Positions 4,041 to 35,222 of a DNA stretch of 36,352 bases are shown here, in pieces. Position numbers and translations under genes: made by a program. Numbering within the stretch: the stretch's first letter is position 1; every line of letters starts with the position of its first letter. The notes below the pieces were generated by a model. That model saw nothing but the letters and a program-made list of their open reading frames with translations, did not search any database and had not been told where the DNA came from. This stretch comes from Victivallales bacterium (GTDB lineage: Bacteria; Verrucomicrobiota; Lentisphaeria; Oligosphaerales; Oligosphaeraceae). The DNA lies in the NCBI GenBank assembly GCA_017554445.1, contig JAFZIJ010000019.1:1-36352 (forward strand). The letters are read 5' to 3'.

Positions 4041-4109
4041 TGATGGCTCTTTGCTTGTTCGTGCGGTATGGTGGATCGTTGAAACCAATAAACGAAAGAG
4101 TGGGGAAAA

Positions 4110-5192: not shown

Positions 5193-5242
5193 AATGGTTA
5201 TTCGTGGATTTTTATGACGTTTTATGATAAAGGAAAGAATTT

Positions 5243-6448
5243 TCAATAGGTGAGTTTGACTCCGAGCCAGATTTCATTGACTTCGTAGTCTCTGGACGGG
5301 AGGTATTTGTATTTTGTATGCTCGTATTCGTAGCCGAGATAGGTGGAGAAGCGTTCGGAGATTTTATAGTCCAGATTGGCGAAGGCGGTGTACTCCGTGG
5401 TGTCATATAGGGAGTTCCGTTCGTCTTGGACGTCTACGCTCACGCCAGGCGAGAAGGAAATTCTGCGGGTAATCTGCCAGGTGGCACGGAGGGAATTGAA
5501 ATATGCTACACGTCCGCCACGTCCTGAACCCGAATCTTCCCATTCAAGACTGGAAATATAGGAGAGGAAGAAATTGGAGACGGGATAATAGCGGAATGTC
5601 AAGTTGGCGACAGGTTCCCATTCACCATCGCCTTTGGTGTTTTTAGAACGTCCCTTGTATTCGGTACGGGATAAACCGCCGCCGAGATGGACGGAGAATT
5701 GTTTGCTTTGGCGATAGTCGATAAACGGCGCTATCGTGTAGGTTTTGGAATCGTCATGCGATTTGTTATTCGTATACTCGCGTTCTTTATAGGAACTGTT
5801 GATACCGAGTTTGATTTTTTCTGTCAAATTGTAGTATGGCGCGACTCCGAACGTGTATTTCTGGTAGGAATGGTTCTTGAATTCGGAATCTGTGTAGCGT
5901 CTGTTGTCATATTTCGCTGAAAAAGCTACACCCCAATGGGCAAATCGAAGCATATCATAGGTCACGCCAGCTGTATTGTCGATACGCTTGGCATGTTTTG
6001 TATTGGACGAATCGAATTTTTCATTGGCGCTGCGTGACGAGAGTGTGAACATGAGTCGGTCTTCGCCGAAGACGTCTACGCCGCCCAAGATAAACGGGGA
6101 AAGGTTCCATTTGAATTCGTTTTCATCATGGGAGTCCTTGTCGTAGTATTCGTAGGAGATATCTCCGACAAGGCCGTATTTCCCGTTTTCGTAGTTCTTG
6201 TACCAGTCAAGGGAGATGCCGGCTTCATTGATGAAGGAACCGATTTTGTTGGTCGCGGAATCATGGATGTTGTCGTTGTAGCGGATTTCCTCGAAAACAG
6301 AGAGAGTGAGTCTGTTCGGGATAGCCGCCGCGGCCGTCTCAAAATAGTCGCTCAGGAATGACTGGGCTTGGAGTTGAGACATGCAGATGCCTGAAAACAA
6401 GACAGCTGCTACGACTTTGAATGAACGGGAAATTCTCCTCATATCCAT
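5243..6448 (-). CDS. Outer-membrane beta-barrel protein of the export locus
   Basis: Starting at ATG 6448 (MDMRRISRSFK; a second ATG lies at 6442) gives about 401 residues. There is a signal peptide (VVAAVLFSGICMSQLQA/QS), then many alternating strands rich in Tyr, Phe and Lys, such as KYGLVGDISYEYYDKD and FFLSYISSLEWEDSG. The last residues are IWLGVKLTY, ending in an aromatic as outer-membrane barrels do. The length and repeated transmembrane-strand pattern resemble the beta-barrel porin-2/exopolysaccharide outer-membrane family found beside Wza-like genes. It probably helps export or anchor the polymer. The barrel assignment is firm; the specific family and role are inferred. Confidence 0.78.
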   Translation of the reverse strand: MDMRRISRSFKVVAAVLFSGICMSQLQAQSFLSDYFETAAAAIPNRLTLSVFEEIRYNDNIHDSATNKIGSFINEAGISLDWYKNYENGKYGLVGDISYEYYDKDSHDENEFKWNLSPFILGGVDVFGEDRLMFTLSSRSANEKFDSSNTKHAKRIDNTAGVTYDMLRFAHWGVAFSAKYDNRRYTDSEFKNHSYQKYTFGVAPYYNLTEKIKLGINSSYKEREYTNNKSHDDSKTYTIAPFIDYRQSKQFSVHLGGGLSRTEYKGRSKNTKGDGEWEPVANLTFRYYPVSNFFLSYISSLEWEDSGSGRGGRVAYFNSLRATWQITRRISFSPGVSVDVQDERNSLYDTTEYTAFANLDYKISERFSTYLGYEYEHTKYKYLPSRDYEVNEIWLGVKLTY

Positions 6449-6487
6449 GTTGTCGCCCCACAATGGTAAAAAATAAATGAAAAAAAA

Positions 6488-6522
6488 GGCTGGATTCCGG
6501 GATAAGAGGCCGGAAGCCAGCC
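6488..6522 (-). terminator. Rho-independent terminator after the small secreted protein gene
   Basis: A 13-bp stem with one mismatch (GGCTGGATTCCGG at 6488-6500 against CCGGAAGCCAGCC at 6510-6522) is followed on the minus strand by eight T residues (complement of 6480-6487). It lies 22 bp past the stop of the 6544-6978 gene and about 40 bp before the start of the barrel gene. Confidence 0.88.
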
Positions 6523-6543
6523 TAAATGATTAGTGCAAAACGA

Positions 6544-6978
6544 TTAGCGAGCGTTGACCGCGGGGTTGGTGCTCAGTGTGGGTTTTTCGACGGCGGCTTT
6601 GGGAATGTCTTCCTTGATGACAGAACCCGTCGTGGTGTCGGTTTCAATAATGGCGATGTTGTACTTGCCACCGGCGGCCTTGGTGACGGAGACATTTGCG
6701 AGCGCGTTGAGCTGCGCAACAGCGGCGGCGGCATAGCTCTTCAGCGTGGCGGTGTTGAGGGCCGTCTTGATGGCGTTCAGGATGACAGCCTTCTGTTTCT
6801 CTGTGGCGGTGTCGAGTTTGCTGAGCAGGTCGCAGGTTTCGGTTAGGTTACCGGACTTGATTTCGGCGGTGGCGATTTTCTTGATGGCGGTGGCGCTGTC
6901 GGAGACAGTCAACGCGTAGGCGCTGACGGAACCGAGCGCGAGGAATGCGACGAGCAGTGTTGCAATGTACTTCTTCAT
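6544..6978 (-). CDS. Small secreted protein of unknown function
   Basis: The 144-residue product has a textbook signal peptide (MKKYIATLLVAFLALGSVSAYA) and then a Thr/Ala-rich mature part of about 120 residues that looks helical at first (SATAIKKIATAEIKSG, LLSKLDTATEKQKAV). It ends in a strand-like portion (GGKYNIAIIETDTTTGS) and a Pro/Thr tail. I do not recognise a family. A good ribosome site (AGAGGTAGAGTC just before ATG 6978), a plausible promoter and a strong terminator suggest a highly expressed, separately transcribed gene inside the export locus. It might be a periplasmic or surface component tied to the polymer; this is inference from position only. Confidence 0.8.
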   Translation of the reverse strand: MKKYIATLLVAFLALGSVSAYALTVSDSATAIKKIATAEIKSGNLTETCDLLSKLDTATEKQKAVILNAIKTALNTATLKSYAAAAVAQLNALANVSVTKAAGGKYNIAIIETDTTTGSVIKEDIPKAAVEKPTLSTNPAVNAR

Positions 6979-7056
6979 GACTCTACCTCTTTTTGTTTTT
7001 GGGTTGTGGGAACTGGTTTATACTTTTGGACAATAAAAAATCAATCATTTACAATT

Positions 7057-7084
7057 AATATAGTTTTGTCTTTTCAATTGGCAA
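7057..7084 (-). promoter_or_regulatory. Putative sigma-70-type promoter for the small secreted protein gene
   Basis: On the minus strand TTGCCA (complement of 7079-7084) and TATATT (7057-7062) are separated by 16 bp in an AT-rich stretch. The predicted start leaves a leader of roughly 70 nt before the ATG at 6978. Confidence 0.4.
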
Positions 7085-7155
7085 ATCTTTTTTTTGTTTT
7101 TTTTTGATTTTTGCAAGAAAAAGCAATCCGGGGATATAAGCTGAAACAAACGTTT

Positions 7156-8022
7156 TCATGCGCTGACCAGTCTTTGGAGGTATTGACCGTATTCCGTTTT
7201 TAACAAATTCTCAATGGAATCAAGGACTTGGGCCTTCGTCATCCATTTATTCATAAAGGCAATTTCCTGCAGACAGGCGACCTGAAGCCCCTGGCGGGTT
7301 TCGATGGTGCGGATGAAATTGGCGGCGTCCAGGAGGGATTCATGGGTGCCCGTGTCAAGCCATGCGTATCCTCTGCCGAGGCGGACGACGCGGAGATCAC
7401 CGCGTCTGAGGTAGGCGTTGTTGACGTCCGTGATCTCCAATTCCCTTCTGGCGGAGGGCTTTAGAGATTTAGCGATGCCGATGACATCGTTGTCGTAGAA
7501 ATAAAGGCCTGTGACGGCGTAGTTGGATTTTGGATTCTGCGGCTTTTCCTCTATGGAGAGGGCTTTGAAATTCTCGTCGAATTCGACGACGCCGAAACGT
7601 TGCGGGTCTCGCACGTAGTATCCGAAGACGGTGGCTCCGGAGGTCTGGGCGGCGGCGCTTTGGACGAGATCTCCCAAGTTGGCTCCGTAGAAGATGTTGT
7701 CGCCGAGGATGAGGCAGACGTTGTCTTGCCCGATGAATTTTTCACCGATGATGAAGGCTTGCGCGAGGCCGTCGGGGCTCGGTTGGACGGCATAGGAGAG
7801 ATTGACGCCGAAGCGTGATCCGTCGCCGAGCAGTCGGATGAAGGCCGGTTGGTCTTCAGGCGTCGTGATGATGAGAATATCCCGTATGCCCGCGAGCATG
7901 AGGACGCTGACGGGATAGTAGATCATCGGTTTGTCATAGACGGGCAGGAGCTGCTTGGAAACTCCCATGGTGGTGGGATGCAGCCTTGTTCCTGCGCCGC
8001 CTGCGAGGACTATGCCTTTCAT
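7156..8022 (-). CDS. rmlA: Glucose-1-phosphate thymidylyltransferase
   Basis: The 288-residue protein has the nucleotidyltransferase signature [18 protein letters not shown], followed by [43 protein letters not shown] and the [20 protein letters not shown] segment. All are characteristic of RmlA/RfbA. It joins glucose-1-phosphate and dTTP to make dTDP-glucose, the first step to dTDP-sugars including dTDP-L-rhamnose. Length is typical (about 290). It follows rmlB in the same direction with an 80-bp gap. No rmlC or rmlD is visible in the window, so the final dTDP-sugar cannot be named. Confidence 0.96.
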
Positions 8023-8102
8023 GGAAAATGTATTCTTTTTTAGGATTCTATATTATTATATGGTAAAGGAAGGATGGCGTTTGACAGCGCTGTGGTGATC
8101 GG

Positions 8103-9158
8103 TCACGCCTTCCCGCCAAGCCGTTGGCCGGCGTATTTCTTTTCACGGATGGGTTTCCACCACCATGCGTTGTCCAGATACCACTGGACGGTTTTGCGGA
8201 TGCCTGTGTCGAAGTTTTCCTCCGGCCGCCAGCCGAGGTCCTTCTGGAGCTTGTCCGAATCGATGGCGTAGCGGAGATCATGTCCGGGGCGGTCTGTGAC
8301 GAAGACGATTTGGTCGGAATATTTGCCTTGCGCTTTCGGGCGGAGGTCGTCGAGAATGTGGCAGATGGTATTGACGACTTCAAGATTCGTCCGTTCGTTA
8401 TGGCCGCCGATATTGTAGGTTTCTCCGGGGACGCCTTTTTCATTGATGAGCCAAAGAGCTTTGGCGTGATCTTCGACATAGAGCCAGTCCCGTACGTTCT
8501 CGCCTTTTCCGTAGATGGGCAGTTGCTTGCCGTCCAGCGCGTTGAGAATGACGAGCGGAATCAGTTTCTCAGGGAAGTGGAAGGGGCCGTAGTTGTTGGA
8601 GCAGTTGCTGATGAGCACGGGGAGGTTGAACGTGTGGCCCCATGCGCGGACAAGATGGTCGCTTGAAGCCTTTGAGGCGGAGTAGGGGGATTTGGGATCG
8701 TAGGGAGTTGTCTCCTTGAAGAAACCTGTTGCGCCGAGGCTGCCATAGACTTCGTCTGTGGAAATGTGTTGGAAACGAAAAGCTTTTTTGCGGTCATCAG
8801 GAAGAGGGCGCCAGTATTCGAGGGCGCATTGAAGGAGATTGGCGGTTCCAAGAACGTTGGTTTTGACGAAGCAGAGCGGATCATCGATGGAACGGTCCAC
8901 ATGGCTTTCGGCGGCCAGATGCATGATGGTGTCTGGCTGAAAGTCGTTGAAGAGGCGTTTGACGGCGACTGGATCACAGATATCTGCCTGTTCAAAATGG
9001 TAGAGCGGTGATTTTTCGACGGATTGGAGGCTTTCCAGATTGCCGGCGTATGTCAGTTTGTCAAGATTGACGACTTCCGCAAGGCGATTGCCGACAAGAT
9101 GCCGGATGAGAGCGGAACCGATGAAACCCGCACCGCCTGTCACGATGACTTTTTTCAT
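8103..9158 (-). CDS. rmlB: dTDP-glucose 4,6-dehydratase
   Basis: The 351-residue product has the NAD-binding Rossmann motif [10 protein letters not shown], then [12 protein letters not shown], the [10 protein letters not shown] segment, the catalytic [15 protein letters not shown] (YxxxK) and [14 protein letters not shown]. All are specific landmarks of RmlB/RfbB. It converts dTDP-glucose to dTDP-4-keto-6-deoxyglucose, using the product of the neighbouring rmlA gene. A ribosome site (AGGAGAAAAC) precedes the ATG at 9158. The length matches the family. It is a core part of the sugar supply for the export locus. Confidence 0.97.
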
Positions 9159-9218
9159 GTTTTCTCCTGAAGTTATTATTATATTTTATAGTAGTATGCG
9201 AATGAAAAAGCGGTGCAA

Positions 9219-11087
9219 TCAGCAGTAGTCTTGCTCCATGCAATGGTAATGCGAGAGCCGGATATTGTTGTTTTTGCAGAACATGACCAGTTCGTCTCGT
9301 TCCTGTTGATGGAGATTGTCAATGCAGACGACGATTTTTCCAAGATGGTGCTTCTCATGGAGTTTAGCAAGGTCTTGTGGCGTGCCGAGCACGCGGAGCC
9401 CGTAGCAGAAGCTATGACTGTAACGTGGGTTGCGGTCGATGAAACCGATGATTTTTTCTTGACAGGCACAGTCGATACCGATCGTGGCGGCGTTGACATA
9501 CATACGCCCTTCCGGGCAGATTCCGTAGAGGAGCGTCGTTATGACGGGGGCTTTGTCCGCATAATATGCGGAGACATGCTGTTTAATAAGCGCTATTCGC
9601 AACGCATGGAACAACATGCGTTCACAGATGATGGCAGCGTCGGCCATGCCGACGGCCGCTGTGAATTCGCGAAGAGTGAAGGGGTAGAATTGGAAGATGG
9701 CATTGAAAATGCCGGATACGGCGAATGCGATGATGACGATGAGAAGCAGGCGGAAGTATTCTTCCGTGGACGGATAATTCCATAGGACGGAGTAGGTGCG
9801 TGAGATGATGAGAATTAGGAAAACAGGGATGAGGAATGCTGCGGTTTCAATGGGGTCGAGGCGGTTTCTGGCGATGATGAAAGCGGCTGTGCAGACACAT
9901 GCATCCCAGACGGGGTTCAGAATGTTGAGCAGGAGTCCGAAGCGTGGCTTTTGATAGTTTTTGAAGATGAATTCAGTCGAAAGCCATAGCTCGATAGTCG
10001 CGTAGCGAACGATGCAGATGGCGAGGCTGGCGAAGACGATGATGAGTGACAGCCACCACAGCCTTTGGGGGATGAAGAAGATGATGATTCCGACGAACGC
10101 CATGATGATTGCCAGCAAATAGATGCTGGAGACGGTCTTGGGCTGGTTTTTGTAGTAGGCGAGCAGGCGGTGATGGAGATGGTTGCCGTCAGCCTTTGTC
10201 AGGGCGGCGAGATGGCGCAAGATGCGTTTAAAGAGAGGAAGATGATGGTTCGGGTCATCTTCCACGGGGGCTATGATGCGTCTCCAGACTGCGAGGAAAA
10301 TGTCCAATGCGGGAACGCAGCAGAGCAGAAGCGGCATGACGATGGCGGAAATGCTGGTGATTTTTGATGTGGCGTTGAGACCCGCGATACCGAGTATGTA
10401 ACCGATGCACATGCTGCCCGTGTCGCCCATGAAGATTTTGGCGGGATGCCAATTGTAATAAAGAAATCCGAAAAGCGAACCGGTAAAGATGAGAAGAATC
10501 AGGGCGTTGAAGCGGCATCCCGTGAACCATGTGATGAACGCAAGGGAGATTGAGGAAATGACGCCGATGCCGCCAGCCAGTCCGTCCACGCCGTCTATCA
10601 TGTTGAACGCGTTGATCATGGTGGTAATCCAGAAGATGGTAATAAAAGCATTGATCGGCGTGGCGATGTGCCATTGCCCTGGTAGGTTGATGTGGACGCC
10701 GAGATACCATGCGATGGTGGCCGCAATGATGTGGAAGAGAAATTTCACTTTGGCCTTAAGGCGGAATCTGTCGTCGGCAATGCCCAACGGGATGAGGATG
10801 ACGAGCGGGATGAGAAGCTTGATGGAATGCCAGCTGGGCTGGCATGCGCCCATGTCGTGTCCTAGAAAGGCGTAGGCGAAGACGACGATGAGAAATGCCG
10901 CCATGATGGCGATGCCGCCGCCACGTGGGCACGTCTTTTCATGAATATGGCGGTCGCCCGGCATGTCAAGCATACCGGTTTTAATGAGGATCGGTATGAT
11001 GGCATGCGTCATCATCAGCGACAGCAGCAAAGCCGTCGCTGGCAAAATCAGGCAGATGACCAACGTTTGGATGCCTTCCTTGCTCAT
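9219..11087 (-). CDS. WecA/MraY-type glycosyl-1-phosphate transferase fused to a CoA_binding_3-like half
   Basis: The 622-residue polytopic protein begins as a WecA/TagO-type enzyme that loads a sugar phosphate on undecaprenyl phosphate. Its motifs are HEKTCPRGGGIAI, LGIADDRFRLK, the NMIDGVDGLAGG catalytic loop, KIFMGDTGSM and DGNHLHHRLL. From about residue 375 a second part follows: four further TM segments (FLIPVFLILIISRTYSVLWN and others) and a soluble Rossmann-like region with IGFIDRNPRYSHSFCYGLRVLGTPQDL and KIVVCID. This resembles the N-terminal membrane and CoA_binding_3 part of WbpM/PglC-linked sugar enzymes, without their C-terminal catalytic domain. It likely starts repeat-unit synthesis. 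The first half is firm; the second half is assigned by pattern. Confidence 0.88.
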   Translation of the reverse strand: MSKEGIQTLVICLILPATALLLSLMMTHAIIPILIKTGMLDMPGDRHIHEKTCPRGGGIAIMAAFLIVVFAYAFLGHDMGACQPSWHSIKLLIPLVILIPLGIADDRFRLKAKVKFLFHIIAATIAWYLGVHINLPGQWHIATPINAFITIFWITTMINAFNMIDGVDGLAGGIGVISSISLAFITWFTGCRFNALILLIFTGSLFGFLYYNWHPAKIFMGDTGSMCIGYILGIAGLNATSKITSISAIVMPLLLCCVPALDIFLAVWRRIIAPVEDDPNHHLPLFKRILRHLAALTKADGNHLHHRLLAYYKNQPKTVSSIYLLAIIMAFVGIIIFFIPQRLWWLSLIIVFASLAICIVRYATIELWLSTEFIFKNYQKPRFGLLLNILNPVWDACVCTAAFIIARNRLDPIETAAFLIPVFLILIISRTYSVLWNYPSTEEYFRLLLIVIIAFAVSGIFNAIFQFYPFTLREFTAAVGMADAAIICERMLFHALRIALIKQHVSAYYADKAPVITTLLYGICPEGRMYVNAATIGIDCACQEKIIGFIDRNPRYSHSFCYGLRVLGTPQDLAKLHEKHHLGKIVVCIDNLHQQERDELVMFCKNNNIRLSHYHCMEQDYC

Positions 11088-26048: not shown

Positions 26049-27329
26049 CTAATTATTTGGCACCAGTGCCAGATGGAAGCCGTAGAGTCTGTTTTGGAAG
26101 ACGTCAAGGCGGCGCCCAAGCCCTGAAAGACGCCCTTTGTATTGGATGACGGCGAGATTCCATTCGGCGTCCGTCGGCAGGGCGAAATGATAGCCTAGCG
26201 GGAGCTGATTCGCAAAATGGCTGTTCAGACGACGGCAGAAATCGTTCGCTTCGTCAAGACCGACGCCCAGCGTGTTCAACGGCGTCTGCATCAACGCCTG
26301 CCATTGGGATTGCGTGATTTCCTGTTCCGTCAGCCAGAAATCTTTCGGAATGGTGATTTGATAGGATGGGGCGGTGGTGCTTCCATACAGCGACACTGGC
26401 TGGTAGCTTCCGGCGTTGACTTTAACCAATTCCAACGGAATGTTTTGTGGAAGGAAAAAAGTCATTTTTGCACCGTCGAATTTGATTTCGGTGGGCTGTT
26501 TGACGATGTGGACGATTGGCGATACCGCCGCGACAACGGCGTTTTTCACGGCTTTCACAAGATGGATGAGGCCGCCGCCGATGATGCAGACAATCAACAG
26601 CATCAACAGGAAGAAATGGCTGCAGCAACAACCCCGTGGAGCCTTGCGTTTGGGTGTTTTTTGTGGTTGATCCTTCTGAAAGAGATTCGGCGGATTGGCG
26701 GTTTTGTTGCATGGCGGTTGATGCACGGGGCGTGATGTCGCCGTCGTGGTTTTCGGGGGGGGCGCAACATGGACGGCTTGCTTGGGCTTCGGTGCGTTTT
26801 TGTCCGTCGGCGTCGCCATGGGAATTGGTTTCGCAAGACGCGGGCCGATTTGCGTCGAAGCGATTCGCACGACCTGCAACCATGAGGGGAAGGCATCGAC
26901 GAGTTCATCTGGTGTCAGATAACAGTCGTTCCTTTGCGCGACATGGCGTTCCACGGCGGTTCCAAGGCTATGTTCGAAGCTTTGGAGCTTCTTTGGCAAG
27001 TCATTGTCTTCCAAGGAGGTGAGACTGTTTTGATGAATCCAGTCATACATGCCGACGGCGTTGCCGAGCATGTTGAATTTCAGCGTCAATTCAACCGTTG
27101 CGGTCTGCGGCTGGCCGTTGCATTGGACGTTTGGAAACAGCGTGGCGTTGAATTCCAGCGGCGTGACGAAGAACGAATTGGGCCATTGTTTCGTATTGCG
27201 GCAGGTCTGACGACCGAAAATCTGCCTGCCGGCGGCGTCCTGCGCAAGCAGATAGATATTCTGCTCCGCAAATGGAATTTGCAGAGATTCGATGTCGGAA
27301 TTGCTTGTGACTTTTTTCAGAAGAAGCAT
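26049..27329 (-). CDS. Membrane-anchored protein with a short, degenerate SUMF1/FGE-like domain
   Basis: The 426-residue protein has an unrecognised N-terminal domain (about 10-165, strands then helices, TVELTLKFNMLG and LPKKLQSFEHSLG). A Pro/Lys-rich linker follows (165-232), then GCCCS and one TM segment (238-258). Residues 298-424 resemble a trimmed formylglycine-generating-enzyme/SUMF1 domain: ELVKVNAGSYQ, DFWLTEQEITQSQWQALMQ, DEANDFCRRLNS, ALPTDAEWNLAV and the final GFHLALVP. That domain is about 127 residues, roughly half the usual size. It lacks the central GNVWEW region and the catalytic cysteines, so it is probably a binding rather than an enzymatic domain. It follows the 295-residue membrane protein gene by 24 bp and faces away from the ESCRT-like genes. 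Confidence 0.75.
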   Translation of the reverse strand: MLLLKKVTSNSDIESLQIPFAEQNIYLLAQDAAGRQIFGRQTCRNTKQWPNSFFVTPLEFNATLFPNVQCNGQPQTATVELTLKFNMLGNAVGMYDWIHQNSLTSLEDNDLPKKLQSFEHSLGTAVERHVAQRNDCYLTPDELVDAFPSWLQVVRIASTQIGPRLAKPIPMATPTDKNAPKPKQAVHVAPPPKTTTATSRPVHQPPCNKTANPPNLFQKDQPQKTPKRKAPRGCCCSHFFLLMLLIVCIIGGGLIHLVKAVKNAVVAAVSPIVHIVKQPTEIKFDGAKMTFFLPQNIPLELVKVNAGSYQPVSLYGSTTAPSYQITIPKDFWLTEQEITQSQWQALMQTPLNTLGVGLDEANDFCRRLNSHFANQLPLGYHFALPTDAEWNLAVIQYKGRLSGLGRRLDVFQNRLYGFHLALVPNN

Positions 27330-27353
27330 GGTCGGACGATAGTTGAGGCGTGG

Positions 27354-28241
27354 TTATTCTTCAAGACGCGTGGCATAGCTGAGCATGGCCAAATCGTAGA
27401 TGACGTTCGCGATGAATGCGATGAAGAAGAGGGCGGTCAGGGCGGGCGTCGCGAAGGAGCCGCCGATCATGAGGAAGGCGAGAATGCCGCCGATGGCGGC
27501 GTATAGTATGAGAACGACGGCGTTGGCTTGGTTGGAGCGTCTGGCGGCCGTGCTGCGGAAGAACGGGAAGGTGATCATGGGAAGGAGAAGGGAGATGAAG
27601 AGAAACGCGAGAATCCGCGCGTACAGCGGAACGGTCGCTTCATACGCTGAGACAGACGGGGCGGCTGTTTGTTCCGTAACAATGGGCGTTACTGACGTGT
27701 CTTGAGGCGGTTCCGACACGACGGCGTCCTGCGTCGATGAAATGGTTCCCGTGAAGCTTGTCTGCATGGTCTGCGCGTCGATGAGATGGAACTGTCCGTT
27801 GATGACGGCGGAATCGTCATTTGTCGTTTCATAAGCCGTCAACTGGCCCCAGATGACGAGATCCGTTCCAGCCTGGGCGGTGGCGTTTGTGGCTTCTTCC
27901 AGCGTGGCGTGCGTCGGAATGCGGAGATGGAGCTTGGCGCGGATACGGTCGATCAACGGGACTTCCTCCAAATCAAGAATGCCTGTGGAAAGGATCTGAT
28001 TGCGGAGCGAGTCTGAAACATAATTGGTCGGATCGTTGTCAAAGTGCAGCAGGATGGCGGTTTTGGCTGAACCGCGGTTCGCGCGGATATCCTCCATCAT
28101 GCGTTTGACGGCGGCATCCGCCACTTCCTTGCGGGAGGCGGCGAGCGGCATGGCGGACGGCGTCAGCCAATACCATGCCGTCACGCAGAAAAGACAGGCG
28201 AATACAACGATTTTGACGATGTTGAAGACAAGTTTGAACAT
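27354..28241 (-). CDS. Membrane protein with a CsgG/TolB-N-like extracytoplasmic domain
   Basis: The 295-residue protein starts after a strong ribosome site (AAGGAGGT). One N-terminal TM (LVFNIVKIVVFACLFCVTAWYW) precedes an extracytoplasmic domain of about 150 residues, and three TM segments close the protein (about residues 208-228, 242-262, 264-282). The soluble part has the strand-helix pattern of CsgG/LpoB/TolB-N-like domains: TAILLHFDN, SDSLRNQILSTGI, EVPLIDRIRAKL, ATAQAGTDLVIWGQLTAYE and LIDAQTMQTSF. I cannot assign a function. It is divergent from the ESCRT-like genes and shares their promoter region, so it probably belongs to the same system. Confidence 0.72.
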   Translation of the reverse strand: MFKLVFNIVKIVVFACLFCVTAWYWLTPSAMPLAASRKEVADAAVKRMMEDIRANRGSAKTAILLHFDNDPTNYVSDSLRNQILSTGILDLEEVPLIDRIRAKLHLRIPTHATLEEATNATAQAGTDLVIWGQLTAYETTNDDSAVINGQFHLIDAQTMQTSFTGTISSTQDAVVSEPPQDTSVTPIVTEQTAAPSVSAYEATVPLYARILAFLFISLLLPMITFPFFRSTAARRSNQANAVVLILYAAIGGILAFLMIGGSFATPALTALFFIAFIANVIYDLAMLSYATRLEE

Positions 28242-28395: not shown

Positions 28396-29436
28396 ATGAA
28401 CAAAACGGAAAAACAACATAGCAGGACATGGCAGTCCGTCTGCGACGAATTCTTTTCGACGCAGCAGGCGAGCTATCAGGAGTCGCCGTGTCCGTTGCCG
28501 TCGATGCGTCTTCCGCTTTGGCTGCGGGCGTTGTTCTATCGTCCGGCGGCGGATGCCGCCGCGTTTGACGACGCGGAGATGGACATCACGGAAGACGTGT
28601 TGTTCCATTTTGCGAAAAACGGTCGAAAGGATGTTCGTTTGAAGGCGCGCGTCCATCGGATTCCCGTCGGCAAAAAACGCTGTTTCCGTGTTGTCAGCGC
28701 GTTTCTTTCGCCTGAAAGCGAACGGCTTGCGGATGGCGGCGATGTGACGATCCTGCGCGAATACGTTGAACGGAAATACGAATTGTTCCGTCGTGAGGAA
28801 GGCCTTCCGACGTTGCATTATTACTTTGTTATCGGTTCCGAACGGCCTTTTGACCAAGGCTGTCAGGCGTTGGCGCGGCCGACGGTCGTGCTCTGCCATC
28901 CGCTTGAATCCGGCCTGTGGGATTTCCGTCTGCCGCGTGGCGACATCGACATGCCGACGGCGGAATTCCTGCTGCATGTCCTACCGGGCATGCGCGAATC
29001 GTATGCTGACGCGATGGCCACGGAAATCGACCATTGGGACAAAAATAGTTTCATCACGCAAGATACGCTGCGCGAACGTCTGCGGCTGGATCCTTCGACC
29101 TACCACGGCTTCCTGTCGCGTTGGCTGGACACGCTGTTCGCACACGGCGGTTATGGTCGCGATTCTCGCGGCTACATCTATGGGCCGGGCATGACGTTGC
29201 CGCCGCGCAAATGGGCGATGCATTGCCGCCGTTATGATTTGACTTTTCTTAGAGTGTTGTTGGATAATGCGTTATGCTTCTTGATGATCCTGCTGATCAT
29301 CGGTTTGAATGCGTTATGGATTACCGGAAACATGGGCGACAATAACTGGATTAAAGCCGCATGGCTGTTGCCGGCTCTGTTGGGGCTCGCCTGCCAATGG
29401 AATATCTGGCGATTGCGAAACCGCAGTGTCAGATGA
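28396..29436 (+). CDS. Unknown protein with a winged-helix-like region and two C-terminal TM segments
   Basis: The 346-residue protein is not recognised. Residues 1-200 are soluble and mixed, with SESERLADGGDV-like turns, a strand HYYFVIGSERPF and helix ILREYVERKYELF. Residues of about 205-263 look like a winged helix: SFITQDTLRERLRLDPSTY with FLSRWLDTLFAHGG and a wing-like RDSRGYIYG. Two TM segments follow (about 285-309 and 320-338), with a short RLRNRSVR tail. It is the first gene of the rightward set leading to the ESCRT-III- and Vps4-like genes. A membrane-tethered winged helix would be a candidate adaptor or sensor, since winged helices occur in ESCRT-II and in archaeal CdvB; that link is inference. 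Confidence 0.7.
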   Translation: MNKTEKQHSRTWQSVCDEFFSTQQASYQESPCPLPSMRLPLWLRALFYRPAADAAAFDDAEMDITEDVLFHFAKNGRKDVRLKARVHRIPVGKKRCFRVVSAFLSPESERLADGGDVTILREYVERKYELFRREEGLPTLHYYFVIGSERPFDQGCQALARPTVVLCHPLESGLWDFRLPRGDIDMPTAEFLLHVLPGMRESYADAMATEIDHWDKNSFITQDTLRERLRLDPSTYHGFLSRWLDTLFAHGGYGRDSRGYIYGPGMTLPPRKWAMHCRRYDLTFLRVLLDNALCFLMILLIIGLNALWITGNMGDNNWIKAAWLLPALLGLACQWNIWRLRNRSVR

Positions 29437-29484: not shown

Positions 29485-30078
29485 ATGGTACTGCCGGATT
29501 TTCTCATCAGACTGCTGGAGATTTTGCATTTGAAGGATTCGGAAGAGACGAAGCTGAAGAAACGGATCGCACAATGCGATGAAAACATCCGCTCTTTGAA
29601 CCAAGGCCTTGAAGGGCAGGTTAAAGTCATCAAAGATTTGGAAGCGGAATTTCGCGAATTGAAAGCGCAGTATGACGTCTCGAGCGGCCCCGTCCGCGAG
29701 ACGCTTGCCGTTCGCATGAAAAACATTTTGAAGCAGCGTGAGCGCATGGGCGAACAGCGTCAGATGGCCGAACAGCAGATGAACGCCGAAATGCTTGTCC
29801 GCCATAATCTTACACTCCAGTTGGAGCACCGCCAGCATCCCGACAATCACGATCTGGAAGAGATTCGTGACGAGAAATTGGATATCATCGATGATTTGAA
29901 AGAGCAGGCGAAGACCATCGAAGAGCTTGAGAAGACGACGATGAAGAAGTCGTCTGAAAAGGACGAAGACTTCGAGAAGGCCTTCCAGGCCGCTGAAGAC
30001 GAGTTCAAAGATGTGGATTTGTCTTTCTCCGCGCCGAAGCCTGAAAAGAAGGAAGAAAAAGAGAAGGATGAGGCATGA
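29485..30078 (+). CDS. Coiled-coil protein, candidate second ESCRT-III/PspA-superfamily subunit
   Basis: The 197-residue protein begins with a hydrophobic amphipathic stretch (MVLPDFLIRLLEILHL) like the membrane-inserting alpha-0 helix of PspA/ESCRT-III proteins. A long charged helical hairpin follows: residues 20-65 (KLKKRIAQCDENIRSLNQ), a turn at VSSGPV, and helix 70-115 (RETLAVRMKNILKQRERMGE). A shorter acidic helical part comes next (123-150), then an acidic FEKAFQAAEDEFKDVD segment and a Lys/Glu tail. The size and helix layout suit the ESCRT-III/PspA/Vipp1 superfamily, but sequence likeness is weaker than for the next gene. It lies 76 bp before the Snf7-like gene in the same direction. 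Confidence 0.6.
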   Translation: MVLPDFLIRLLEILHLKDSEETKLKKRIAQCDENIRSLNQGLEGQVKVIKDLEAEFRELKAQYDVSSGPVRETLAVRMKNILKQRERMGEQRQMAEQQMNAEMLVRHNLTLQLEHRQHPDNHDLEEIRDEKLDIIDDLKEQAKTIEELEKTTMKKSSEKDEDFEKAFQAAEDEFKDVDLSFSAPKPEKKEEKEKDEA

Positions 30079-30097
30079 GTTCCGGCGATGCCGGAAC
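30079..30097. other. Perfect 8-bp hairpin after the coiled-coil gene
   Basis: GTTCCGGC and GCCGGAAC pair perfectly around a GAT loop, starting at the base after the TGA stop. No T-run follows, so it may be a 3'-end processing or stability element within a polycistronic mRNA. Confidence 0.6.
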
Positions 30098-30125
30098 GCT
30101 TATGGCTTATGGCTTATGGCTTATG
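30098..30125. repeat. Heptamer tandem repeat, four units of GCTTATG
   Basis: Four exact 7-bp copies lie directly after the hairpin and before the ribosome site of the Snf7-like gene. Confidence 0.95.
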
Positions 30126-30154
30126 GAAATACAATAAAATAAAAAGGAGTTGTC

Positions 30155-30808
30155 ATGGGATTGTTTGATTGTTTCAAATCAAAGTCGGAGCGGGAGCGTG
30201 AACAGCGCCGCGAACGTCGCCGCAATGAACGCAGGGTGGAGCAGGACATCGAAAAGTTCGACGAAGCGATCGCCAAGCTGACGGAAGAACGCACAAAAGT
30301 CTGGAATCAAGCCCGCGAACTGTTGAAGAGCGGCCGTCGGGCGGAGGCTCAGCGCACGTTGCTTTTCTATAAAAAGTACGACATCGCCATCAACAAACTG
30401 GAAAAACAGAAGGTCTTCCTCAAGAGCCAGGCCTTGCAGGTCAGCACGGCGGGCAACGTCAACACGACGTTGAACGACATCAAGACGATGGCCGCAGACC
30501 ATGACATCGATCCCGACAAGCTTGCGGAAAGCCTCGACGATGTCGAGATGATCGCGGAGGACATTCTGGATTCCGACAAGGTCATGAACAAGGCTTTTGA
30601 CAAGGACTTGGACCATATGGCGCAGGAAGTCGCCGCCGGTGATATCAGCTACAAGGACGATGAACTGATGGCCGCGTTGGAGAACGAATGCGCGGCGGAA
30701 GTGCTCGGCCCGAAAGTCGCGGAAACGCCTGTGACGGACAAGCCGGTGAGCCATGACGACATCAGCGCGGGCGCGGAGCGTCTGAAGAAAATCATCAGCG
30801 AGAAGTGA
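30155..30808 (+). CDS. Snf7/CHMP4-like ESCRT-III protein
   Basis: The 217-residue protein matches the eukaryotic Snf7/CHMP4 layout from end to end. It starts MGLFDCFKSKSE, like the MSLFGKLFGG-type start of CHMP4. A very basic alpha-1 (12-57) and an alpha-2 hairpin follow, the latter with GRRAEAQRTLLFYKKYD (60-76), like the CHMP4 segment around ALQALKRKKRYE. Then come STAGNVNTTLNDIKTM (97-112), an acidic alpha-3/4 (DIDPDKLAESLDDVEMIAEDI, 118-137) and YKDDELMAALENECAAEVL (166-184), matching the CHMP4 block FDEDELMAELEELE. The C-terminus has AERLKKIISEK, close to a MIM1 core (RLxxL). ESCRT-III proteins polymerise on membranes and are disassembled by Vps4. AAGGAG precedes the ATG. This is pattern recognition by eye, but the matches are collinear. 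Confidence 0.82.
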   Translation: MGLFDCFKSKSEREREQRRERRRNERRVEQDIEKFDEAIAKLTEERTKVWNQARELLKSGRRAEAQRTLLFYKKYDIAINKLEKQKVFLKSQALQVSTAGNVNTTLNDIKTMAADHDIDPDKLAESLDDVEMIAEDILDSDKVMNKAFDKDLDHMAQEVAAGDISYKDDELMAALENECAAEVLGPKVAETPVTDKPVSHDDISAGAERLKKIISEK

Positions 30809-30839
30809 AAATCGTTGTCGCGCATGGAGTTGACGCAAC

Positions 30840-31946
30840 ATGAGCAATTTCAATTACGAAAAGAAACTGGAGCATGAGAAGGCGGCGGAAAAGGCGTTGT
30901 TGGAAGACGATTTCCCGTCGGCGTTCTATCATGTCGCGGAAGCGGCGAAATTCGCCTTAGCCCTTGCGAATCAATGTACAGGGCGCTTGCGTGATGCCTA
31001 TATGAGCAACGCGAACGAACTGATGGACCTGGCGGAAAAATGCAAGGCTAAATGCGCGAAGCGAAGCGGCGGCGAGAAGATGAGCGTGGAAGGCGACGAG
31101 TCGAAAAAGCTGAACGACTGCCTCGTGGAGCGTCCGTCCGTCCGCATGGCGGACGTGGCGGGCATGGATAATGTGAAACGGCAGATTCGCCTGCGGATGA
31201 TCGATCCGCTGCAGCATGCGGAGGAGGCTCGCAAGCATGGCCTGAAGGTCGGCGGCGGTATCCTGCTGTACGGTCCGCCCGGAACAGGCAAGACGTTTAT
31301 CGCGAAGGCGGTGGCCGGCGAACTGGATCTGCCATTTTACACAATCACGGCGGCGGATATCTTTGGAAAATACGTCGGCGAATCGGAAAACAACATTCGC
31401 ACATTGTTCGAAGAGGCTCGGAAAAATCCGCTGTCCGTCGTATTCATCGACGAATTAGAGACGATTTTCCGCAAGCGGACAGGTGACATTCACGAAACGA
31501 CGCAGAAGGTCATTTCCGTCATTTTGCAGGAATTGGACGGCGTGAAGGACGGCAAGAATCCGTTCCTGCTGCTTGGCGCGACAAATGCGCCGTGGATGAT
31601 CGACGAGGCGTTCATGCGGACGGGCCGTTTCGATGTGAAGGCGTATGTCGGTCTGCCGGATCTCCCTGCGCGCGAACAGATTATCCGCAACGCTTTCAAG
31701 CATGTGGAATATCCCGTCGATGAAGACGCCATCCTCTATTTGGCGTCCGCCACAGGCAAATGCAGCGGCGCGGACATCAACGGCATTGTGCAGTCGATTC
31801 GCCAGACGGCATTCGAACGCCATGCGGACCGCTACACGATTGAGCTGTTCCGTGCTTGTACGCAGCATATTACGCCGTCGTGCAACGAAGAGACGTTGCG
31901 CAAAATCGAAGAATGGGAGAGGCAGAACGAAATCAAACGGGAGTAG
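30840..31946 (+). CDS. Vps4-like AAA ATPase with N-terminal MIT-like domain
   Basis: The 368-residue protein has an N-terminal helical domain (about 5-75: AAEKALLEDDFPSAFYHVAE, then ANELMDLAEKCKAK) matching the three-helix MIT pattern of Vps4. A linker leads to the AAA core (about 97-330): Walker A GPPGTGKT (145-152), pore loop GKYVGESENNIR (176-187), Walker B VFIDELE (201-207), sensor LLLGATNAPWMIDEA (243-257) and Arg finger region RTGRFD (260-265). GATNxPW and GESE are Vps4-type. SGADINGIVQSIRQ and a final helix ITPSCNEETLRKIEEWERQ resemble the Vps4 C-terminal helix; the eukaryotic beta-domain insertion is absent, as in archaeal CdvC. It starts 31 bp after the Snf7-like gene. It should use ATP to remodel ESCRT-III filaments. 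Confidence 0.88.
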   Translation: MSNFNYEKKLEHEKAAEKALLEDDFPSAFYHVAEAAKFALALANQCTGRLRDAYMSNANELMDLAEKCKAKCAKRSGGEKMSVEGDESKKLNDCLVERPSVRMADVAGMDNVKRQIRLRMIDPLQHAEEARKHGLKVGGGILLYGPPGTGKTFIAKAVAGELDLPFYTITAADIFGKYVGESENNIRTLFEEARKNPLSVVFIDELETIFRKRTGDIHETTQKVISVILQELDGVKDGKNPFLLLGATNAPWMIDEAFMRTGRFDVKAYVGLPDLPAREQIIRNAFKHVEYPVDEDAILYLASATGKCSGADINGIVQSIRQTAFERHADRYTIELFRACTQHITPSCNEETLRKIEEWERQNEIKRE

Positions 31947-31958
31947 GTGGGACGGAAC

Positions 31959-33143
31959 ATGTCGAAGAAGCACAAGGCAGAAAACAATCAGGCGTTGACG
32001 GTGACGGGGCATGAGCCCTCGTCGTCGTTCGCCGTGACGTTGATGCGCGGCGAAAACGGCCGCGTCCTGCTGCCTGTGAAGACGGAATTGGCGAACGACA
32101 CGGCGGCGCAGGAAGCGGTTGTCGTGCGCGTTTTGCCGCAGGGCGTCCGCCGCGAAGTGTTGCGGCAACTGCAGGCGGAAGAGGAACGCCGTTCACCTGT
32201 GCAGTGGGCGTTGATCATCGCCGTTCTAGCGGTTTCATTGACGATTGTCTGGAGGTATTTTCCCGTCCAGCCGCCGATGGAGTCGCTGGATACGAAGATG
32301 GAGATCGAGACGACGGACATTCCGCGGAATAGCGAGTACTACGGTCTGTATGTCCTTTCAAAGGAGCGGTTTGAAGCGCAGAAATATGCCAAATGCGCTT
32401 CGGAGCTTGCGCCGAAGATTCCGGAGCTTTTGGACAGGCGTGAGCAGTTGGGCGAAAGCCATGACCGGCTGTTGTACTATTTCTTCGAATCCGTTCGCGT
32501 CGGTCGTGTCGATACGACGACGAAGCGGATGGCGGAGAAATACATCGATGTGTTCGCTTCCTTGAACCATGACGAAGTGAAATGGGACATCATGCGCATC
32601 AAGCTCTGCGCGAAGGAATATTTGAACGTGGAATTGCTCCATTCACGTCTCAGCCAAGGCCGCTACAAGCATATCTGGCAGCGGAAGCTGAGCGAAAATG
32701 AATTGTGGATCCATCGTGTCCGTCCACTGGTGGAAAGCGTTGAACGGCAGGCAAATGCCACTGACAGCACGGAGGAGACGCTGGAGAATCTCTATCAATT
32801 GAAATATTCGCTGGCGTGTCTGTTGACGGCGCGTTGGATGTTGGAAGGCGGAAAGGGAAAGAGCGTGTTCCCAGACGATTACGGCGATCCAGGCGTGGCC
32901 AGCCGCGAAGAGGCGATGCGGATCTGCCGCGAGACGGAGGACCGCTACCGTCCCGTCGGAAAAGTGAAACGGGAGCTCGTGGAGTATCTGCGGTTGCGGA
33001 AGTTCATCGCGGAGACGGTGATGGCGCAATCGAAGAACATCAATCGTTATTATTGGAATGGCGAGACGCATTCCACGAACGAGGCTTTGCGCATGGAGAT
33101 CACGATGGTGAACACGCGGTTGGAAAAAGGCGTGGGGCAATAG
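31959..33143 (+). CDS. Single-TM protein of unknown function in the ESCRT-like set
   Basis: The ATG at 31959 gives 394 residues; a GTG at 31947, directly after the previous stop, would add four. About 80 polar residues lead to one TM (VQWALIIAVLAVSLTIVW, about 83-100), preceded by EEERRSP, which suggests N-in/C-out. The remaining ~290 residues, mostly helical and rich in Arg/Glu (RLLYYFFESVRVGRVD, YQLKYSLACLLTARWM), could be TPR-like repeats outside the cytoplasm. I do not recognise a family. Its start lies 12 bp after the Vps4-like gene, which makes translational coupling likely. It could connect the cytoplasmic filament system to the envelope; this is inference. Confidence 0.78.
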   Translation: MSKKHKAENNQALTVTGHEPSSSFAVTLMRGENGRVLLPVKTELANDTAAQEAVVVRVLPQGVRREVLRQLQAEEERRSPVQWALIIAVLAVSLTIVWRYFPVQPPMESLDTKMEIETTDIPRNSEYYGLYVLSKERFEAQKYAKCASELAPKIPELLDRREQLGESHDRLLYYFFESVRVGRVDTTTKRMAEKYIDVFASLNHDEVKWDIMRIKLCAKEYLNVELLHSRLSQGRYKHIWQRKLSENELWIHRVRPLVESVERQANATDSTEETLENLYQLKYSLACLLTARWMLEGGKGKSVFPDDYGDPGVASREEAMRICRETEDRYRPVGKVKRELVEYLRLRKFIAETVMAQSKNINRYYWNGETHSTNEALRMEITMVNTRLEKGVGQ

Positions 33144-33328: not shown

Positions 33329-34498
33329 ATGACGCAGCAACTGGTGACAACGGCAAGACGTGGATGGGACTGGATGTTCCAGCCGCGGCATCATGCCAAC
33401 GGCATATCGAGCTTCAGCGACAAGAAGTTCTATGTCGTGCTGTTCTTGTATCTTGCGTCGTTTCTTGTATTCGCGCATGATCCGTTCTTCCATCAGCATG
33501 GCGCGTTTGTCTATCAGCAAGGCTTGGTGACGTTGCTGTTGGCGGCGGTCATCGCCGCCGCCTTCAACTGGGAGATGTGTCTTTTCGGCAAGCCCGTGGG
33601 GGCGAATCTGTTGTTGCATGTCATACAAGTTTTTCCGCTGTCGTTGTTTATGGCGAGGATTACGGCGAAGGCGAGCGTTCCAGACGAACCGGAATCGCTT
33701 TTCGGCTACGCGGTGGAGATGATGAAAGGATGGTCCCACCGGCTGTTCGGTGATGTCATCAGCGAGATTCCTGTGTGGTTGACGGATTTGTTCACGAACT
33801 GGCGGATCTGCATCCTGCTGGCGTTTGTGCTGTTCTTCCTGTGTTTCCGCAACTTGCCGCTGAAGGTTGCCGCCGTCGTCTGCGCGTTGCTTGTTCCATT
33901 CGCGAGCGTCATCGCGAAAGGGCCCGTCGGTTATCTGATACCGGGCATGATCCTGCTTGGCGGCGGCATGGCGATGCAGTTCTGCCGTTATGACAAGATT
34001 CTCTATTTCGAGAATATCTTCCATCGTCTGCGCGCCTCAACAAGTCTTGATTCAATGCTGGCGGCAGTCATTCTGCGGACAATGACGGATTTGCAAAACC
34101 AGACACGCATGTCTGAAAAAAATCTGCTCAGTCTCGTGCGGGCGGAATACGACCCGGAAGGAAAAATGACGCCCGCCGATCTGCAAATCATTGCCGGCGA
34201 AGTACTACAGCGAATGGTCTATGAATACGATCTGGTCGTCATCCGCGGCGACGCGGAAGGACTGTTTTTGCAACCGAACGCGCTGTTGCGTTGCCACGAC
34301 AGCTTGCTGACGCAGCTGGCCGTCTTCCCGCGTGTCGTTTTGGCGTTGACGGCGGCGACCGTCTGGGTGCTGCTGCCTGTGGATTTGATTCCGGATTCGC
34401 TTCCGTTTTTGGGCATGCTCGACGATGTGACGGTGGCGATTTTTTCCGGAATCGTGCTGAAGAATTCGGTGGAGGGGCATGTTCAGCGTCGGCAGTGA
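33329..34498 (+). CDS. Polytopic membrane protein with C-terminal DUF1232 (YkvA-like) domain
   Basis: The 389-residue protein has about six TM segments in its first 220 residues (VVLFLYLASFLVFA, LLLAAVIAAAF, ICILLAFVLFFLCF and others) and a cytoplasmic-looking helical part of about 110 residues. A final hydrophobic region reads TVWVLLPVDLIPDSLPFLGMLDDVTVAIFSGI (about 347-379). The LxPVDLIPDxxPxLGxLDD motif is the DUF1232/YkvA signature. The role of DUF1232 is unknown. The 3' end overlaps the next gene's start by 20 bp, so the two are almost surely coupled. It belongs by direction to the ESCRT-like set, though 185 bp containing a repeat separates it. Confidence 0.83.
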   Translation: MTQQLVTTARRGWDWMFQPRHHANGISSFSDKKFYVVLFLYLASFLVFAHDPFFHQHGAFVYQQGLVTLLLAAVIAAAFNWEMCLFGKPVGANLLLHVIQVFPLSLFMARITAKASVPDEPESLFGYAVEMMKGWSHRLFGDVISEIPVWLTDLFTNWRICILLAFVLFFLCFRNLPLKVAAVVCALLVPFASVIAKGPVGYLIPGMILLGGGMAMQFCRYDKILYFENIFHRLRASTSLDSMLAAVILRTMTDLQNQTRMSEKNLLSLVRAEYDPEGKMTPADLQIIAGEVLQRMVYEYDLVVIRGDAEGLFLQPNALLRCHDSLLTQLAVFPRVVLALTAATVWVLLPVDLIPDSLPFLGMLDDVTVAIFSGIVLKNSVEGHVQRRQ

Positions 34499-35222
34499 TT
34501 TCAGCCGTGGCATCGGCTATGTGTTCAAAGGCATCATGGGCTTTTGGAAGCGACCACGCCTGTGGGTTTACGCGATTATTCCATTTATCTGCGTAAAGGT
34601 CTTGTTCGCAGCTATTTCGTACTACGTCCTGCATTCCCATGTGCAACCGTTGGTTGAACGATTGACGGCAATCATTTCCGGCTGGGGGATGGAGACACTG
34701 GCCGTCGTGGCGGGCTTCGTTGTGCATTGGGTGGCGGTCATCGCGTTTTTTCTGTTCATGGCGTCCATAACCAGCATGCTGTTTGAAGTGTTTGGCGGCG
34801 TATTCTTTACGTATATGGTTCGACGCTACGAACATATCGTGTATGAACGGCCGCTGGAGCCGCCTGTCACATGGCGGCAGGATATTCTGAACACGATTGG
34901 CTGTGTCGTCTATTCTGCTGGAACAGTGATCTTGAACATTCCGATTCTGCTGTTGGGCTTTGTGTTTCCGTTTTTCGCGCATGTCTTGGCGGCATGGCTT
35001 GTCGGATATCGCTATGGCATCAGTTATTGCGCGGAGTCAGGCTTCAACAAAGGATGGTCCATTGCGTTGTTGCAACAGCGCTTCGCAGGGCACCGCACCG
35101 TGCTGCATGGCTTTGGCATGATGGTTTTCCTGTTGCTGATGATACCGTATATATCCATCCTGCTGATTCCGGGATTTGTCATCGGCGGGACGATTCTAGT
35201 AAACGAGGAGCAAAGGCACTAG
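34479..35222 (+). CDS. EI24/CysZ-like membrane protein
   Basis: The 247-residue protein has about four to six TM segments (LWVYAIIPFICVKVLFAAI, VVHWVAVIAFFLFMASI, ILNIPILLLGFVFPFFAHVLAAW, MMVFLLLMIPYISILLIPG). Other features are the conserved N-terminal FSRGIGYVFKGIMGFWKRPRLW and the C-terminal IPGFVIGGTILVNEE. This layout matches the EI24 family that includes CysZ sulfate permease and eukaryotic EI24. Here the context is membrane proteins rather than sulfur genes, so sulfate transport is doubtful. The gene starts inside the end of the DUF1232 gene. The TAG stop lies at the head of a short 9-bp repeat. Confidence 0.83.
   Translation: MFSVGSDFSRGIGYVFKGIMGFWKRPRLWVYAIIPFICVKVLFAAISYYVLHSHVQPLVERLTAIISGWGMETLAVVAGFVVHWVAVIAFFLFMASITSMLFEVFGGVFFTYMVRRYEHIVYERPLEPPVTWRQDILNTIGCVVYSAGTVILNIPILLLGFVFPFFAHVLAAWLVGYRYGISYCAESGFNKGWSIALLQQRFAGHRTVLHGFGMMVFLLLMIPYISILLIPGFVIGGTILVNEEQRH

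Follow-up and report, generated by a model that had tools for sequence, protein, structure and literature searches.

Does a bacterium encode both halves of an ESCRT system (endosomal sorting complex required for transport), that is, a Snf7-type filament protein and, beside it, a Vps4-like ATPase? In eukaryotes and archaea, Snf7 polymerises and thereby bends and cuts membranes; a Vps4-like ATPase is predicted to dismantle such filaments. The question is raised by contig JAFZIJ010000019.1 of Victivallales bacterium (assembly GCA_017554445.1), analysed here over 36,352 nucleotides; this whole stretch is called the window. The evidence given below indicates that a two-part ESCRT-type membrane machine probably exists in this bacterial group. 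A first-pass annotation, made from the sequence alone, had described three open reading frames (ORFs) in the window. All three were found at the positions reported, and the Snf7-like gene is separated from the ATPase gene by 31 bp:

29485..30078, + strand: coiled-coil protein, 197 aa, amphipathic N-terminus (ORF); putative distant second ESCRT-III-like subunit
30155..30808, + strand: Snf7-type ESCRT-III protein, 217 aa (ORF; Pfam Snf7; family profile; AlphaFold)
30840..31946, + strand: AAA ATPase, 368 aa (Pfam AAA; model; trees)

In passages of Makarova et al. (PMC10936438), ESCRT systems with both genes are regarded as archaeal and eukaryotic, and part of a review (PMC7615534) describes a clear Vps4 as wanting in bacteria, PspA working without a clear Vps4 homologue. 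The first-pass annotation had stated that bacteria normally have only PspA/Vipp1. This was too strong, as excerpts of Ravi et al. 2024 (PMC11237479) mention bacterial Snf7-clade and Vps4-like genes. The pair was indeed foreshadowed there, because these excerpts report bacterial Vps4-like ATPases, at which snf7 is displaced by a TPR-6TM gene, as well as AAA ATPases alongside some Snf7-clade genes of bacteria.

The small protein is related to Snf7

The 217-residue protein starts with MGLFDCF and contains GRRAEAQRTLLFYKKYD and DDELMAALE. It consists of a short hydrophobic N-terminus, an alpha1-alpha2 hairpin, acidic middle helices, a flexible linker and a C-terminal helix, ISAGAERLKKII. Taken alone, it matched Pfam Snf7 with E = 0.0021 (18.2 bits, gathering cut-off 27.3) and matched no PDB chain; a whole-genome Snf7 search of the host returned nothing at E ≤ 0.001. 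Its kinship was settled by the profile matches of its family. A protein search of 288 genomes of the phylum recovered the Snf7-like family in 15, host genome counted, and an alignment of 20 members was assembled from 18 proteins of 14 relatives, the window protein and one protein from a closer locus (the near-copy from L001 was excluded from alignment A1, and loci L003 and L004 yielded ATPases only). Pfam Snf7 was found at E ≤ 1 in 17 of the 20 members (best 8.7e-9), and two of 28 database homologues (P0013 and P0014) carry a precomputed PF03357 assignment.

Searched against PDB, the 20-member profile matched yeast Snf7 (E = 1.8e-8, 2.9e-8 and 5.1e-8), the best match spanning 135 profile positions, and Asgard ESCRT-III (1.3e-4 and 6.6e-4). 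A 36-member profile likewise gave Snf7 (2.0e-8) and Asgard ESCRT-III (9.7e-4 and 0.004). PspA/Vipp1 chains were absent from the 18 PDB matches of the first profile and from the 15 of the second, and PspA_IM30 does not appear in the listed part of the Pfam results for these members (25 of 80 families). The hairpin-turn residues G60 and A65 are invariant across the family. Judged by sequence, the small protein is homologous to Snf7 and closer to Snf7 than to PspA; PspA identity was rejected on the absence of PspA/Vipp1 from the PDB matches of either profile.

The structure prediction that the first-pass annotation had called for returned an ESCRT-III-type hairpin. AlphaFold (36 rows) placed helices at residues 10-58, 62-96, 102-115, 120-128, 133-160, 169-183 and 200-215, so that in the model an alpha1-alpha2 hairpin is predicted to precede alpha3 to alpha5, the ESCRT-III order. 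With VIA, the predicted hairpin lies in register on the Snf7 core (0.9 Å over 78 residues, 19% identity). Helix 200-215 sits beyond a low-confidence linker, and the tail of the protein resembles a MIM1 motif (MIT-interacting motif 1).

The ATPase lies on the Vps4/spastin side of the AAA family

The ATPase matches Pfam AAA with E = 1.9e-40 and bears the motifs KYVGESENN and GATNAPW. A three-helix N-terminal domain (residues 3-75, hereafter the N-domain) is followed by a linker, a single Vps4/spastin-like AAA module and a C-terminal helix. Spastin, Vps4 and Cdc48 D2 are the solved folds nearest to the model (predicted local distance difference test, pLDDT, 83); Foldseek ranked p97 first and yeast Vps4 at 40, VIA placed spastin, Vps4 and Cdc48 within 1 Z, and the fold-match rows scarcely cover the N-domain. 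The post-lid C-terminal helix is predicted at residues 350-362, and spastin and Vps4 align to model residue 360-366. This helix is also present in Cdc48 D2 and is therefore not specific to Vps4.

The ATPases of the Planctomycetes-Verrucomicrobia-Chlamydiae (PVC) bacteria and Vps4/spastin/CdvC, including two Heimdall modules, formed one clade apart from Cdc48, FtsH and PAN (support 100/97, with 8 of 13 non-redundant CdvC). The PVC ATPases branch beside, and not inside, the Vps4/spastin/CdvC sequences sampled, a sample with no Asgard or euryarchaeal Vps4. Two near-identical ATPases were excluded from the trees, and two Heimdall rows from a tree that included IetA-type ATPases. No grouping with FtsH, which the first-pass annotation had named as an outcome that would speak against it, was seen; FtsH and Cdc48 were both rejected by the trees as closest kin. 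We conclude from these trees that the ATPase belongs on the Vps4/spastin side. The proposal of a Snf7-type protein beside a Vps4-like ATPase thus holds, with the family profile matching yeast Snf7 at 1.8e-8 and tree support of 100/97.

Two further observations concern ATPase relatives. P0074, labelled Heimdallarchaeota, has two AAA modules; in the tree these lie within the PVC ATPases and have long branches. Viral contigs encode AAA relatives at 26 loci at least (best E = 7e-41, 31% identity, among the matches listed).

The N-domain accompanies the Snf7-like gene

The N-domain has predicted helices at 3-21, 25-45 and 48-75 (pLDDT of the block 83-95). The first-pass annotation had called it MIT. 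The likeness to MIT stands as regards position, size and the three predicted helices; homology to MIT at the sequence level was not detected by Pfam (listed part), by the PDB profile search or by hhalign.

In a census of 387 genomes from the phylum, 16 have the Snf7-like gene (11 of 311 good-quality genomes), and the ATPase profile, at a threshold of E ≤ 1e-85 set to exclude FtsH, identified 23 genomes. In 15 of these the ATPase carries the N-domain, and all 15 have the Snf7-like gene. In seven others (L104-L110), four or five hydrophobic stretches replace the N-domain and the Snf7-like gene is found in none; the last ATPase is truncated by a contig end. This co-occurrence (15/0 versus 0/7) gives a Fisher P value of 5.9e-6, which is merely a guide because the lineages are not independent. 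The sixteenth Snf7-bearing genome (L035) has its N-domain on a SpoVK/CbbX motor instead. In all 16 genomes the Snf7-like gene and the gene for the N-domain ATPase lie at most 4 kb apart on one strand. The pairing of the two genes is more than chance, and across genomes the N-domain behaves like MIT.

At L035:8895-9995, the family N-domain (E = 2.5e-7) is joined to an AAA motor of the SpoVK/CbbX class (301 bits to SpoVK, below the cut-off of 423), 10 bp past the Snf7-like gene. By its domain composition, L035 is a natural motor swap: the N-domain tracks the filament protein even with a different motor, since here it rides on a SpoVK/CbbX one. Another unusual locus, L024:6679-16088, packs four Snf7-like genes and two genes for N-domain ATPases into 10 kb; a second AAA module is present in one of these ATPases.

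The upstream coiled-coil protein

The first-pass annotation had also singled out a second coiled-coil protein with an amphipathic N-terminus just upstream. The hydrophobic moment of the N-terminus is 0.57, and an iterated profile retrieved family members at 13 of the 14 loci fetched from relatives. When its profile was compared with that of the Snf7-like family, the score was 35.1, whereas 40 block shuffles gave no more than 23.8, and reversing one of the two gave 22.0 and 22.3; the hhalign probability was 51%. Against PDB, designed coiled coils came out best (1e-4), with Snf7 at 0.12 across most of the length. Seven loci have a longer form, and most long forms start with a cysteine-rich, zinc-ribbon-like part (the L034 row, with masked letters, was excluded from alignment A3). 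The protein is probably a distant second ESCRT-III-like protein.

A proposed membrane-remodelling machine and its alternatives

We propose, with a probability of about three in four, that the Snf7-type protein and the Vps4-like ATPase work together as a machine for membrane remodelling, the ATPase pulling subunits from membrane-bound filaments. The Snf7-like protein would insert into the inner membrane by way of its hydrophobic N-terminus and then polymerise, the upstream coiled-coil protein serving perhaps as partner subunit or as nucleator of the filament. By analogy with MIT on MIM, the docking site of the N-domain would be the helix at the C-terminus of the Snf7-like protein; the AAA ring would then thread and remove subunits with ATP, and the filament would remodel or seal the membrane before being recycled. 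The task is probably envelope repair or the sorting of proteins at the membrane, because a gene pair resembling an ECF (extracytoplasmic function) sigma system precedes the genes in four relatives, and SPFH, FHA and kinase genes lie near others.

Several results weigh against this proposal. The patchy presence of the Snf7-like gene (16 of 387 genomes) speaks against an essential role. The window protein itself scores below the Pfam Snf7 cut-off, and the Asgard matches share their score range with an unrelated TPR-like chain (6.7e-4 with the profile of 20, 0.0031 with that of 36). Confidence in the Snf7-like model is modest (pLDDT 64), and Foldseek gave this model no match at E ≤ 0.001, the best being eisosome Lsp1 (0.059); the list below Lsp1 consists largely of CdvB2, Snf7, Vipp1, Ist1 and Asgard ESCRT-III, with probabilities up to 0.98. 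VIA scored BAR domains as high or higher, through looser alignments (3 to 8 Å root-mean-square deviation in the BAR rows listed), and Vipp1 rows also appear, so that the predicted fold fits the ESCRT-III superfamily and cannot separate Snf7 from PspA. The MIM-like tail pattern, of the RL..LL type, is present in only 22 of 36 rows; it is missing in the other 14, including L031, L033 and L035. As to the N-domain, the Pfam families listed for the ATPases, 25 out of 66, do not include MIT, no MIT chain was among the 16 PDB matches of its 15-row profile, the top one being a designed protein (1.2e-5), and hhalign against 47 MIT rows scored 17.2, below the shuffle maximum of 19.7 (archaeal MIT against yeast MIT, used as positive control, reached 26.8). 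Finally, once IetA-type ATPases were added to the tree, the order of PVC, Vps4 and IetA was not settled, and three PVC modules fell outside the PVC clade.

Alternatively, the small protein might be a PspA/Vipp1-type stress protein that stands beside a general AAA ATPase by chance, its likeness to Snf7 reflecting the shared ESCRT-III superfamily. PspA and Snf7 are homologous, according to part of PMC8281802, and an excerpt of Ravi et al. (PMC11237479) describes PspA beside AAA ATPases. Vipp1 chains are among the fold matches, the sigma-like regulators hint at envelope stress, and no PspA gene over the Pfam cut-off was found in the host genome, for which the Snf7-like protein could be a stand-in. 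Yet this explanation is unlikely: the profiles match Snf7 and Asgard ESCRT-III, with PspA/Vipp1 missing from all 18 and 15 PDB matches and PspA_IM30 from the listed part of the Pfam families, and all 16 Snf7-bearing genomes have an N-domain ATPase as its partner.

Less probable still is an IetAS-related defence against phages, in which the ATPase would play the part of IetA and the effectors would be the helical proteins. PADLOC IetA models do match the ATPase (137 bits), NCBIfam IteA reaches 125.6 bits on it, far below the cut-off of 510, and IetA-type ATPases belong to the same wider clade; the pair is patchily distributed, and one locus contains a PD-T4-6-related kinase (222 bits). However, the IetA rows form a clade of their own (support 100/100, branch 2.45), the nine window proteins scanned include no subtilase (IetS) partner, and IetA leaves the Snf7-type protein unexplained. 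IetAS identity was rejected on the score, the lack of a subtilase among these nine proteins and the separate IetA clade. Both the PspA-type and the IetAS-type explanations are weaker than that of a filament protein with its dedicated ATPase. Least probable of all is some other long helical scaffold (BAR-like, or a structural coiled coil) with a convergent likeness to Snf7, given the Snf7 profile match of 1.8e-8 over 135 positions, the invariant G60 and A65, and a hairpin in register on Snf7 at 0.9 Å over 78 residues (19% identity) where BAR rows reach 3 to 8 Å.

Genomic setting

The genes around these three are as follows:

27354..28241, - strand: membrane protein, 295 aa, hydrophobic stretches at the N- and C-terminus; divergent gene
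28396..29436, + strand: 346-aa protein with a hydrophobic stretch close to the C-terminus; ORF immediately upstream of the coiled-coil gene
31947..33143, + strand: protein with one hydrophobic stretch, no assigned family; abuts the ATPase gene directly
33329..34498, + strand: multi-pass membrane protein with DUF1232 (E = 3.2e-8)
34479..35222, + strand: EI24/CysZ-like membrane protein (EI24, E = 4.1e-19)

The three genes downstream of the ATPase gene are on its strand and all encode proteins with hydrophobic stretches; among the loci compared, counterparts were found in L001 and L002 only, the two closest. The family of the 295-aa protein is more widespread, found close to the Snf7 gene at 12 of the 14 loci fetched from relatives (iterated profile), and three of four longer relatives of the 346-aa protein that were scanned match a papain-like peptidase. 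Next to the divergent gene, in the 26049-28241 region of the window, is a membrane protein resembling sulfatase-modifying factor (Pfam E = 1.8e-5), and ORFs matching it are present in L028, L029 and L031 (phmmer). On the opposite strand, window positions 1773-11087 hold putative exopolysaccharide-type genes, named from their sequence: a chain-length/tyrosine-kinase-like protein with a glycine-tyrosine-rich tail, an export protein and dTDP-sugar enzymes.

Pfam domains were recorded on the scanned neighbour proteins of the 14 fetched relative loci. SPFH/Band 7 occurred in four (L030, L031, L033 and L036), all but L030 having a zinc ribbon above the cut-off as well; a protein of the SPFH cluster in L028, cut off by the fetched stretch, had no Pfam match. 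FHA was found in four loci (L028, L030, L033 and, just below cut-off at 20.5 of 20.7 bits, L031) and protein kinases in three (L027, L031 and L035). None of these three domains was seen among the nine window proteins scanned. A short gene pair heads the operon in L024, L025, L029 and L037; sigma-70 region 4 was over cut-off in L024, below it in L025 and not found in L029 and L037. The two sigma-partner proteins examined carry an Hx3Cx2C motif, of a type known from anti-sigma factors.

The host assembly totals 4.9 Mb in 234 contigs and is 90.5% complete. Recent import of the three genes was rejected, because their guanine-plus-cytosine (GC) content (0.495-0.557) and third-position GC (0.64-0.75, highest in the Snf7-like gene) are near those of nine other measured genes (0.57-0.73). 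Horizontal transfer had been envisaged in the first-pass annotation; in the form of a recent transfer from the archaeal CdvC sampled it finds no support, the ATPases standing beside that clade and the base composition fitting the window. A mis-binned archaeal contig is also unlikely, since similar loci exist in two other assemblies (ATPase best-segment identity 98% and 87%) and a relative ATPase, P0036, sits on a 2.7-Mb contig.

Relation to known systems and significance

The locus resembles archaeal ESCRT/Cdv systems in layout. In passages of Makarova et al. (PMC10936438), CdvB-CdvC and the euryarchaeal main, Halo_FHA and Meth_adaptin systems likewise have an ESCRT-III gene adjoining that of a Vps4-like ATPase, which combines one AAA module with a helical domain at the N-terminus. 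Archaeal ESCRT loci also hold kinases, FHA proteins and zinc-ribbon SPFH proteins according to the same passages, and kinase, FHA, zinc-ribbon SPFH and coiled-coil neighbours recur in some of the bacterial loci. ESCRT genes nearby are given there as the second criterion for Vps4, and the ATPase has them. Unlike the archaeal systems, the host here is a bacterium, the ATPase falls beside the CdvC/Vps4 sampled, no MIT was recognised in the sequence of the N-domain, and membrane proteins without assigned family lie nearby. Eukaryotic Snf7/CHMP4 and Vps4 provide the best profile match, the hairpin fold and an AAA fold with a C-terminal helix; the sequences are distant, MIT is undetected and the tail is merely MIM1-like. 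With bacterial PspA/Vipp1 the system shares the ESCRT-III superfamily, Vipp1 among its fold matches and, probably, a membrane-stress setting, whereas PspA/Vipp1 is missing from the profile matches and PspA has no clear Vps4 homologue in the part of PMC7615534 cited above. The cases in the excerpts of Ravi et al. 2024 (PMC11237479) are bacterial relatives of both halves, but in their Vps4-like cases the Snf7-like gene is displaced, whereas here it is present and linked.

Among the titles and abstract openings found in searches of open-licence literature, none described a Snf7 and Vps4-like pair in Lentisphaerota, Kiritimatiellae or Verrucomicrobiota, nor a linked Snf7/N-domain-ATPase operon in the phylum, a multi-transmembrane ATPase without Snf7, or the motor swap. 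We tentatively suggest that these loci may represent a separate bacterial ESCRT branch, with a composite filament (a Snf7-type and often a zinc-ribbon coiled-coil subunit), a fixed docking domain, an exchangeable motor (Vps4-like in 15 genomes, SpoVK/CbbX-like in one) and kinase/FHA/SPFH wiring in some loci, through which phosphorylation would control sorting or repair at the membrane of the bacterium. If such is the case, ESCRT-III with a dedicated motor would not be solely an archaeal-eukaryotic invention. A conserved bacterial pair would offer a small system for reconstitution and, in the motor swap, a natural test of how an AAA ring is docked to its ESCRT-III filament, and would reopen the question of the origin of the ESCRT core.

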